From: Alphaproteobacteria bacterium
Lineage (GTDB): Bacteria; Pseudomonadota; Alphaproteobacteria; SMXS01
DNA length: 52,355 bases
Assembly (NCBI GenBank): GCA_030836535.1
Contig: JAURPT010000064.1
Location: forward strand, 1-52,355
Reading direction: 5' to 3'
The notes beneath the pieces were generated by a model, which was not told the origin of the DNA, ran no database searches, and saw only the letters and a list, made by a program, of their open reading frames with translations. Each line of letters opens with the position of its first letter. Position 1 is the first letter of the stretch. Positions 40,940 to 44,382 of this stretch are shown here, one piece after another. The position numbers and the translations under genes were made by a program.

Positions 40940-41764
40940 ATGAAAAGCCCGGTCGTTTGCTTTTGGGGGACGCGTGGCTCTGCCCCCTGCCCGGAGCCAA
41001 GCCACGCCAAATATGGTGGCCACACGTCTTGTATAGACGTCATATATGGTGACCATCACATTGTCTTTGATGCCGGTACTGGTCTGCAGGCGCTGGATCG
41101 AAGTCTGGCAGGTGTCGGCCATATCGACCTGCTGCTCAGCCATACGCATTTTGACCATGTCTGCGGGTTCCCGCATTTCAAGGCGTTGTTTAACCCGAAT
41201 TTTTCCTGCCATATCCGGGCGGGTCACCTGCCGGAAGGTGAATATATCGAGGCGATCATGGCAGGGTTGATGGAGCCGCCCTATTTTCCCATGCCCATGT
41301 CCTTCTTTAACGCGCAGCTGTCCTTCACCGATTTTCGGGTTGGCGAGCGCTTTATATTGGGCAGTGATATCCGTGTCGGTACGATTGCGCTGAACCATAC
41401 CAACGGAGCGACGGGTTACAGGCTTGATGGGCCCGGCCTGTCCGTCTGCTACATCACGGATATTGAGCATGATGGCTTGGTGCCGGACCCGGACCTGGCC
41501 ACTTTTGTTTCTCAGGCTGACTTGTTGATCTACGACTGTTCCTATACCGACGAGGAATATGACGCTTTTGCAAAGGGGCGCGGTCACTCCACCTGGCAGG
41601 CGGGGATGCGATTGGCCAAAGCCGGTTCAGTTGGCAATTTTGCCATATTCCATCACGACCCGGCCCATGACGATATTGCCATGGATGCTATTGCAGCGGA
41701 GGCTACGGCGGAGATGAGCAATTGTTTCGTTGCCAGGGATGGCCTGGTCTGGCAGCCAGCCTAG
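40940..41764 (+). CDS. MBL-fold metallo-hydrolase
   Basis: A 274-residue metallo-beta-lactamase-fold hydrolase with FWGTRGSAP near the start, the zinc motif HTHFDHVCGF and downstream metal ligands His and Asp (GHSTWQAG, HHDP). This branch, with the FWGTRGS start, includes phosphodiesterases of the RNase Z/cyclic nucleotide type, but the substrate cannot be told. The start at 40940 is chosen from the family pattern; a TTG at 40913 would overlap the regulator gene. It follows the CenR-like gene by 11 bases and may be cotranscribed. Confidence 0.82.
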   Translation: MKSPVVCFWGTRGSAPCPEPSHAKYGGHTSCIDVIYGDHHIVFDAGTGLQALDRSLAGVGHIDLLLSHTHFDHVCGFPHFKALFNPNFSCHIRAGHLPEGEYIEAIMAGLMEPPYFPMPMSFFNAQLSFTDFRVGERFILGSDIRVGTIALNHTNGATGYRLDGPGLSVCYITDIEHDGLVPDPDLATFVSQADLLIYDCSYTDEEYDAFAKGRGHSTWQAGMRLAKAGSVGNFAIFHHDPAHDDIAMDAIAAEATAEMSNCFVARDGLVWQPA

Positions 41765-42570
41765 ATGTTCAGATCAACCGTAATGGGCGCGTGATCCGAC
41801 GGCTTTTCCCAGTCGCGGGCCTCTTCTAGAATTTGCATGGCCCGTACGCTTTTCTTCAAGGGCTCTGTTACCCAGACATGGTCAAGCCGTCGGCCGCGAT
41901 TATTCGTGCGCCAGTTTTTGGAGCGGTAGCTCCACCAGCTGAACAGCTTCTCTGGTTCTGGCACCACTTCGCGCACGGCATCTACCCAGGCGATGCTGCT
42001 CTGCAGAGTGGCGAGTTTTTCCACCTCGACAGGTGTGTGGGATACCACCTTCAAAAGTTGCTTGTGTGACCAGACATCATGCTCCGAGGGGGCAATGTTC
42101 AAATCGCCAACCAGAATTTTGGGGTGGTTTGGGTCGTGGCTGGTCTTGAACCAGTTTGTGACATCATCCAGGAACTGCATCTTGTGGGCGAATTTGTCGT
42201 TTTCTTCCGGATCGGGCGCGTCACCACCGGCGGGAATATAGAAGTTATGAACTTCCAGCGGTTCGCCGCCACCAATTGCATAGCGTGTCATCAGGTGGCG
42301 GGCTTCATCCTTGTCGCACCAGTTTCTGCGTTCGCTGTTAACGAGCGGTACACGGGAAAGCGTCGCAACGCCATGATAGCCCTTTTGCCCCGCAACCGCC
42401 TGGTGTTCATAACCCATGGCCGTGAATGCATCGGCCGGGAACAGGGGGTCATCGACCTTGATTTCCTGCAGGCACAGAATGTCCGGTTTATGCTCGGCGA
42501 CAAATTGTTCCACCAAACCGATGCGCAGGCGTACAGAGTTGATGTTCCAGGTCGTGATGCGAAGGGTCAT
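41761..42570 (-). CDS. xth: Exodeoxyribonuclease III
   Basis: The 269-residue enzyme is an AP endonuclease/3' repair exonuclease of the Xth family: TWNINSVRLR, ILCLQEIKVD with the metal-binding Glu, LVGDLNIAPSEHDVW with Asp and Asn of the active site, RRLDHVWV and the final SDHAPITVDL. The ATG at 42570 is the family start; 19 upstream codons lack similarity. It overlaps the MBL gene's stop (convergent). Confidence 0.95.
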   Translation of the reverse strand: MTLRITTWNINSVRLRIGLVEQFVAEHKPDILCLQEIKVDDPLFPADAFTAMGYEHQAVAGQKGYHGVATLSRVPLVNSERRNWCDKDEARHLMTRYAIGGGEPLEVHNFYIPAGGDAPDPEENDKFAHKMQFLDDVTNWFKTSHDPNHPKILVGDLNIAPSEHDVWSHKQLLKVVSHTPVEVEKLATLQSSIAWVDAVREVVPEPEKLFSWWSYRSKNWRTNNRGRRLDHVWVTEPLKKSVRAMQILEEARDWEKPSDHAPITVDLNI

Positions 42571-42584
42571 GGTCCTGTCTCGGT

Positions 42585-43190
42585 CTAAAAGATATTGAGT
42601 GTCTGGCCGGTAATGGCGATGGGCCAATGCCCGGTTTCATAAAGGGCGAACTTCAGGGCGCAGGGGTGATCTTCTTCTTCACCGGCGGCAATCACGAGGG
42701 CTGCATTGTAGCAGGCCTGCAAGGCCGCGCCGGCGCAGGCCTCGATAATCTCGTCATCGTCGACACCCCACATATTGGCGACATTGGCTGCGGCTTCAAA
42801 AATGACAGGGGTGGCGCTTGTGGTAATAGCATCCAACGCTTGGCCGAGATCTTCTTCTCCCAGGAACAGAAGAGCCTCCTGTGTCAAGTGCGCCCGCAGG
42901 GTTTCTTCGGCTTCCCAGCTTTCGCTGTTGATCTCCGGGTTCTCGGCGGTACTTGCGGCGGTCTCCCAATCGGTGACGCCGGAAACCCAGACACCCGGAA
43001 AGCCGAGCTGGGCGACATAGTCTTCTGCAATGATCCGGATATCGTCACTCAGCGGTTGGCCGAGCCGGTGAAACCAGTCGGCTTGTTCAATGACAACACG
43101 CAACTGTGCCAGCGCCATGATGATCCACTCCTGATCTTCATCGCGCTCAATGTCATCTTCTGGTGATGTGTAAGTGTCTGGTTCTTTCAC
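42585..43190 (-). CDS. Acidic protein of unknown function
   Basis: I do not recognise this 201-residue protein. It is strongly acidic, with Glu/Asp-rich N-terminus (SPEDDIERDEDQEW) and mainly helical, with Ala-rich segments such as ACAGAALQACYNAALVIAAG. The GTG at 43190 is chosen because AGGAG lies before it; the open frame runs on to 43409 but that stretch overlaps the small-RNA-like region and its terminator and looks non-coding. The gene ends 14 bases before xth, so it may share its transcript. Confidence 0.7.
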   Translation of the reverse strand: MKEPDTYTSPEDDIERDEDQEWIIMALAQLRVVIEQADWFHRLGQPLSDDIRIIAEDYVAQLGFPGVWVSGVTDWETAASTAENPEINSESWEAEETLRAHLTQEALLFLGEEDLGQALDAITTSATPVIFEAAANVANMWGVDDDEIIEACAGAALQACYNAALVIAAGEEEDHPCALKFALYETGHWPIAITGQTLNIF

Positions 43191-43232
43191 GGGGCGCTCC
43201 TGCGACCCTTCTACCTTGACCTTGCGGCAATG

Positions 43233-43266
43233 AAAAGCCCGACCAAGGGGATGACTTGGCCGGGCT
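43233..43266 (-). terminator. Rho-independent terminator of the small-RNA candidate
   Basis: AGCCCGGCCAAG and CTTGGTCGGGCT (minus strand) pair over 12 positions with one C-A mismatch, loop of seven bases (TCATCCC), then TTTT at 43236-43233. The opposite strand lacks a T-run, so termination is for the minus strand. Confidence 0.75.
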
Positions 43267-43385
43267 GTAAGCGCTAATGGCGCTGGGTACGTGGAGGGGG
43301 GTCCAGTACCGTTGACAACTCGGTGCGGAACACTAAGGGAGGGGATGTGTTTCGTGCACCTCGGGCGTCGTCGTGCGCAGTATTT
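43233..43385 (-). ncRNA. Candidate small RNA with C-rich hairpin loops and intrinsic terminator
   Basis: On the minus strand this stretch of about 150 bases folds into four clear hairpins in order: (1) GGTGC/GCACC and AACAC/GTGTT stem, loop ATCCCCTCCCTTA (43322-43360); (2) GGTAC-TGGA/TCCA-GTACC, loop CCCCCC (43286-43310); (3) AGCGC/GCGCT, loop CATTA (43270-43284); (4) a 12-pair terminator stem followed by TTTT (43233-43266). A CTTGCA -35-like element lies upstream (43405-43410). The C-rich loops resemble the anti-Shine-Dalgarno loops of known alphaproteobacterial small RNAs. It lacks 6S, 4.5S and tmRNA hallmarks. Not a recognised family; prediction only. Confidence 0.5.
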
Positions 43386-43602
43386 GGTGTAATTGTATTT
43401 GGAATGCAAGCCCTGATCCGGCGCTTGGACGATGTTTTTTATAGCGTCTCTAAAATGGCCCTAATTACAATTTGTTATCAGCTATAAGATCGCTCAGTTT
43501 TTTAAGAAATTCTTCAAATAAACTTGACGATTCACCAAAGCTGTAGGTCATTTTACGAATCAAGTGATTCGTTTTTCTGTTTCGGGCCCTGGTTTTTGGC
43601 GC

Positions 43603-44334
43603 TTATCGCTTGCTGGGCGGGCGTCCCCGGCGCGGGCGGGGGTCCTTGAAATCCCACAGGGCGTCTTCCAACACCACATCGGTCTGCAGATTATTGAGCA
43701 CAACAATGGTGCGTCTGCCCCTTGGGTCAATCACTTCCCACCGTACCAGCCGCAACGGGTTCTTGTTGAAGACAAGCTCCATGGCCCCATCTTCTTCTTC
43801 TGCGTCTTCGGCGATACGAACGATGATTTGCCGACCGCGTTCAACAAAGTGAGAGATGGTGACGTCCTCACCAAATATTTCGCCACTGCGCACCAGGGGT
43901 CGTAGAGGAGTTCTCTTGATTGGCCATTTGGTCACCTGCTTCAGGTCGTAGTCGACAAGTGAAATGACTTTGCCGTCGCTGACCACCAGCAAAGGATTGG
44001 GGGGGTCATATTCAAAGCGCAGGCGGCCGGGGCGTTTGAGTGAAAAAGTCCCGTTGCTCACATTTCCATGTGGTGCAATCTGCATGAATTGGGCCTGGAA
44101 GTTTCCAAGGCTCTGCAGATAGGCCTCGACCTCCTCCAGCGTAATGCCGGGTGTTGAATTGTCGGGGATCGTGTTGGGGTCGACCCATTCCTGTGCAATG
44201 TCACTATTGACCAACAGGCTTTCGGGCGGCGCGCCCAGTCTGTCGTCGGCGTTTTCCTCGGCACTCGCCGTCGTTGTTGTAACCAGCAGGCTGGCGACAA
44301 AAAGTGTCCGGGTGAATTTTGAGATCGATGTCAT
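43603..44334 (-). CDS. lolA: Outer-membrane lipoprotein carrier LolA
   Basis: LolA is the periplasmic chaperone carrying lipoproteins from LolCDE to the outer membrane. The 243-residue precursor has a signal peptide (MTSISKFTRTLFVASLLVTTTTASA) followed by a long acidic/Pro linker and the half-barrel LolA domain with FKRPG-type SLKRPGRLRFEYDPP and LLVVSDGKVISLVDYDLKQVT. The C-terminus ends in a basic Arg/Pro tail (PRPRRGRPPSKR). The ATG at 44334 is preferred. It follows ftsK by 48 bases, as in other alphaproteobacteria. Confidence 0.9.
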   Translation of the reverse strand: MTSISKFTRTLFVASLLVTTTTASAEENADDRLGAPPESLLVNSDIAQEWVDPNTIPDNSTPGITLEEVEAYLQSLGNFQAQFMQIAPHGNVSNGTFSLKRPGRLRFEYDPPNPLLVVSDGKVISLVDYDLKQVTKWPIKRTPLRPLVRSGEIFGEDVTISHFVERGRQIIVRIAEDAEEEDGAMELVFNKNPLRLVRWEVIDPRGRRTIVVLNNLQTDVVLEDALWDFKDPRPRRGRPPSKR

Positions 44335-44382
44335 GGCGCCTACCATAAACAAAGAAGATGACTGGAACATGAATAATCGGGG

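Follow-up and report, generated by a model that had tools for sequence, protein, structure and literature searches.

The small RNA locus

The window, by which we mean the whole 52,355-nucleotide stretch analysed here, has the gene order FtsK-LolA-RNA-DUF-XthA, and this order is seen wherever the contig allows (10 genomes, three genera). The interval between lolA and the DUF gene is occupied by a genuine small regulatory RNA gene (Table 1). Its 3' end is the T-run of the terminator, and its 5' end is approximate. The original prediction had put a candidate RNA between lolA and an unknown gene, and both neighbours agree with that placement: the upstream gene is a recognizable lolA, and the downstream protein has no Pfam or NCBIfam match. 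In many families relatives of this ~200-aa protein separate the RNA from xthA (e.g. L075, L077 and L090); they have in common a C-terminal stretch of roughly G.WP.G..G.T..IF.

Table 1. Coordinates of the small RNA gene, its hairpins, upstream boxes and neighbouring genes in the window.
Feature	Position	Strand	Description and basis
sRNA, concluded to be a RusT-locus orthologue	43233..43380	-	~146-148 nt; fold and matches to covariance models R1 (43232-43380), R2 (43233-43380) and R3
SL1	43314..43372	-	C-rich loop ATCCCCTCCCTTA; CCCCTCCC at 43337-43344
SL2	43286..43310	-	Loop CCCCCC; ACCCCCCTCC at 43293-43302; counterpart of the target-pairing SL2 of RusT
SL3	43270..43284	-	Small GCGC hairpin (GCGCCATTAGCGC) before the terminator; counterpart of the Hfq-binding SL3 of RusT
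SL4	43233..43266	-	Intrinsic terminator, 12-bp stem, CATCCCC loop, TTTT tail; terminator scan and pair counts
-10-like box CCAAAT, within CCAAATACT	43382..43387	-	Alignment of upstream regions
-35-like box TTGCAT	43404..43409	-	Distance from TTG to CCA[AC]ATAC constant in f1 relatives
lolA, upstream neighbour	43603..44370	-	Pfam PF03548, E 2.1e-27
Uncharacterised protein (~200 aa), downstream neighbour	42585..43190	-	Relatives follow the sRNA in many families
xthA-type exonuclease III, next gene downstream	41761..42570	-	Pfam PF03372, E 2.3e-31; same place in relatives
Second inverted repeat in the lolA-RNA gap, followed by TTTT	43555..43572	+	Terminator-like for plus-strand transcription

The minus strand from about 43380 to 43233 is predicted to fold into four hairpins in series, as originally proposed. 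The minimum free energy is -62 kcal/mol for 178 nt, compared with a mean of -40.05 (sd 3.56) for shuffled sequences, giving a z of -6.17, and none of 200 dinucleotide shuffles folds as well. The two predicted C-rich loops are those of SL1 and SL2, whose C-runs have an unpaired probability of ~1 in the window fold, and a terminator scan recovers SL4 with its TTTT tail. The C-run is absent from SL3. The gene is present in a single copy in its own genome.

The claim that coding potential is missing is correct in part. A 274-aa reading frame with a TTG start is open through the sRNA in the window, and it is the comparison with relatives that speaks for a non-coding product: because none of the frames stays open across all of them, and one- and two-base indels break the frame among them, a non-coding RNA still fits best.

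Conservation and covariation

The sRNA is present in all ten genomes examined from the window's order (three genera), with loop letters that are nearly invariant and stems that change in step. Six base pairs have changes on both sides, a number reached by none of 500 shuffles, and the conservation and compensatory stem changes that the original prediction proposed to look for in the gap downstream of lolA are thereby clearly observed. The CCCCTCCCTT of SL1 is invariant in nine of nine aligned f1 sequences.

A covariance model from the window's order (R1) reaches into a distant genus with very many species (f5): 22 of 60 genomes of that genus's order are matched, some of them weakly. The reciprocal model R2 was built from the distant family alone, without any relative of the window, and recovers the window RNA at 31.2 bits and other members of the window's order at 26.6-46.9 bits (46.9 bits for L037); the link therefore holds in both directions. 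Covariation is seen directly within the distant family, where a plain MAFFT alignment of nineteen sequences, made without structure, has two-sided changes at 22 of 43 pairs; none of 500 shuffles reaches this, and slid controls give 6 to 11. A structure-fitted alignment of 29 diverse members, which leans towards its own structure, has changes on both sides at 38 of 43 pairs and pairing in 94% of cells. For SL3 every cell is paired, and two pairs are invariant in all 29 sequences.

A third model (R3) matches 52 of 385 genomes sampled from the class at E <= 0.01, a proportion that probably falls short of the true one, given the strict filters applied. All ten matches from a draw across the phylum fall in the Alphaproteobacteria, the number of other classes in that draw not being given. 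Three weak matches (L121, L123 and L184) lack the matching architecture and synteny, and we regard them as false. Most members keep C-runs in their hairpin loops, and their stems covary strongly. Among 78 members there are 205 C-runs of at least 4 nt, 173 of them in loops; this corresponds to 2.2 loop C-runs per sequence as against 0.62 in shuffles, an excess that is partly expected because the models themselves contain C-runs. The location of C-runs in loops holds for the distant members too.

Relationship to RusT

No Rfam 15 family matches the window at its gathering score, and relaxed thresholds yield only sub-threshold look-alikes, with nothing convincing in the relatives. The sRNA can still be likened to a named RNA by its locus and architecture, and the original view that no named family fits is not sustained. 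RusT (CCNA_R0199) of Caulobacter crescentus is a 118 nt RNA encoded between lolA and xth (PMC11005374). It has four stem-loops: a conserved cytosine in the SL2 loop mediates pairing with targets, SL3 binds Hfq and SL4 terminates transcription. RusT has its own promoter, to which NtrX binds, and is repressed by NtrX; iron starvation induces it via NtrYX, and it represses many outer-membrane transporters (PMC11005374). Homologues have been described in the Caulobacteraceae only (PMC11005374).

The window RNA likewise has lolA upstream and xth downstream, all on one strand, and its four stem-loops end in an intrinsic terminator, with SL3 placed directly before this terminator and conserved cytosines exposed in SL2. 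It differs from RusT in its length (~146 nt versus 118 nt), in the DUF gene that stands between it and xthA, and in its C-rich SL1 loop, a second conserved C-rich loop being unreported for SL1 of RusT. Because the locus and the four-hairpin plan match, we conclude, from locus, strand order and architecture, that the window RNA is a RusT-locus orthologue. Its spread through the class appears to be new, since Rfam 15 has no model for it and the published homologues are confined to the Caulobacteraceae.

Gene order among relatives

The sequences flanking 81 matched loci were searched with profiles of the neighbouring proteins. By our count 44 loci have lolA upstream and 38 have xthA downstream, and one or other of them adjoins the RNA in 52 of the 81, representing 26 families and always on the strand of the RNA. 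This adjacency is observed directly and is support independent of the model score; it is present also for matches with doubtful scores, such as L182 and L183.

The same arrangement invites the reading that the RNA is a 5' leader (attenuator) of the DUF and xthA genes, in which the terminator blocks read-through unless a signal or ligand refolds the leader. In most families the RNA does share the strand of the DUF gene or xthA and precedes it by some tens to a few hundred bases, and the terminator in the window ends ~43 nt before the next start. However, the consensus structures show no alternative anti-terminator pairing, the conserved parts are the loops and not a ligand pocket, and RusT at the lolA-xth locus is a proven trans-acting RNA. 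The f5 genomes are also informative here, in that the downstream gene is convergent in all 20 loci where a gene was found and yet the RNA and its terminator are fully kept; a pure leader role is therefore ruled out in f5, and for the RNA as a whole we regard it as very unlikely.

In the f5 loci (L042, L043, L054-L069 and others) the RNA is mostly outside the lolA-xthA gap, and a few species keep lolA upstream. An aminotransferase gene is often upstream of the RNA in this genus, and the convergent downstream gene is alkB-like and often less than 20 nt away.

Comparison with other small RNAs

The best sub-threshold Rfam match is sX13 of Xanthomonas (RF02232), at 20.5 bits (E 0.11) and far below its gathering score of 50. 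It too has compact stem-loops whose loops carry C-runs, and its targets are mRNAs with G-runs near the start (PMC3771888); it differs in that an unstructured 5' end precedes its three stem-loops, in being Hfq-independent and in being gammaproteobacterial. GsrN of Caulobacter has a six-cytosine run in its 5' loop that pairs with G-tracts, but it has a sigma-EcfG promoter, is linked to the general stress locus in most species, activates katG and is not found at lolA-xthA (PMC5869019); the window RNA is at lolA-xthA and is preceded by TTG-N20-CCAAATAC. StsR of Rhodobacter, at 72 nt, was also considered and dropped.

A parallel in loop design within the Alphaproteobacteria is offered by the rhizobial cuckoo RNAs (SmelA075 and SmelA099), which have three to four hairpins with C-rich anti-Shine-Dalgarno loops (PMC3927594), and the window RNA with its several C-rich hairpins could be one of this type, lowering the translation of many mRNAs. 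Cuckoo RNAs carry CCUCCUCCC in every hairpin, whereas this motif is in none of the loops of the window RNA, which hold CCCCTCCC or CCCCCC, or lack a C-run altogether in SL3. Cuckoo RNAs are furthermore multi-copy, with broken synteny and no fixed locus (PMC3927594), in contrast to the single copy and constant locus seen here. Membership of this group is accordingly even less probable than a leader role, and the RusT-locus assignment is preferred.

The promoter region

A promoter-like TTG(N20)CCAAATAC is immediately upstream of the sRNA in the window, and TTGAA-N16/17-CCATCT-like sites are found upstream of distant members. The position of the first element is constant: 62 of the 78 members have TTG[AC][ACT] at 25-36 nt before the RNA edge, compared with 1-16 for other 12-nt bins. 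Because of this box at a fixed upstream position the sRNA very probably has its own promoter, as judged from the upstream sequences.

This bears on the possibility that the RNA is a stable product cut from the 3' UTR of the lolA mRNA, with no promoter of its own. Such an origin would be compatible with the co-oriented lolA that precedes the RNA in most families, but would not account for the box at a fixed distance, nor for the f5 and f126 RNAs, which follow other genes yet keep the upstream box; RusT, moreover, has its own NtrX-bound promoter. Processing from lolA is the least probable of the alternatives weighed here, and transcription as an independent gene remains the reading we favor.

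The TTGAA-N17-CCATCT sequence resembles a heat-shock (RpoH) promoter, although upstream regions of groES in the same genomes fail to separate RpoH from sigma-70, and the RusT paper points to NtrX; an RpoH assignment was set aside. A conserved element near AAAATAGGCAAAA precedes the -35 box in genera g2 and g3 (L007-L013 and L037) and is a possible regulator site. A similar element is not obvious in the window.

Proposed function and distribution

The reading that we favor, and hold to be quite likely, is that the locus encodes an independent trans-acting sRNA, orthologous by locus to RusT, with its own promoter and an intrinsic terminator. Transcription would start at the promoter in the gap that separates lolA from the DUF-xthA genes and stop at SL4, and the RNA would expose C-runs in SL1, SL2 and the terminator loop. 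The C-runs, above all those of SL1 and SL2, would most likely pair with G-rich stretches near translation starts, and pairing would most likely lower the translation and stability of the target mRNAs. Pairing of this kind has been reported for sX13 and, by way of SL2, for RusT. By analogy with RusT, SL3 is the most likely landing site for Hfq, and the window sRNA is probably Hfq-assisted. Gene structure, conservation, covariation, promoter position and synteny are direct observations at this locus; pairing through SL2, a need for Hfq, repression of outer-membrane transporters and NtrYX-mediated induction by iron starvation are properties that would be transferred from RusT by orthology.

Perfect 9-nt complements of the loops were sought before ATG in ten genomes, where there are 24 sites, only about double the 11 for the reversed pattern. 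This search gave no conserved targets in the ten genomes, and no known gene is shared among them save nrdR in two close species. In the window's own genome AGGGAGGGG, which is perfectly complementary to the SL1 loop, stands before mraW/rsmH (L159 and L167, contig C76). As a target mraW/rsmH is attractive in that genome, but the site is absent in nine of nine relatives of the order and the candidate was rejected.

On a larger scale it is likely that RusT, far from being peculiar to Caulobacter, is ancient and vertically inherited throughout the Alphaproteobacteria, that it has a constant position after lolA and two or sometimes three loops with C-runs, and that in the f5 genus (possibly Sphingomonas) the gene has moved intact to another site. 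The C-rich loop of SL1, absent from the description of RusT, would then act as a second seed and broaden the range of targets. An sRNA described from one family would thus become known across a class, at a fixed locus, with conserved pairing loops and a clear structure model, and its function would therefore be testable in many culturable Alphaproteobacteria; annotators would gain an RNA family that is missing from Rfam 15.

Among the variants at the same locus, we note a shorter sub-type of ~110-125 nt in several families (L087, L095, L096, L098, L099, L101, L110, L114 and L119), close in length to the 118-nt RusT. Its SL1 is without a long C-run, the SL2 loop usually contains CCCCT, the arms of SL3 are often GGCTCC..GGAGC-like, and the terminator loop contains about six Cs.
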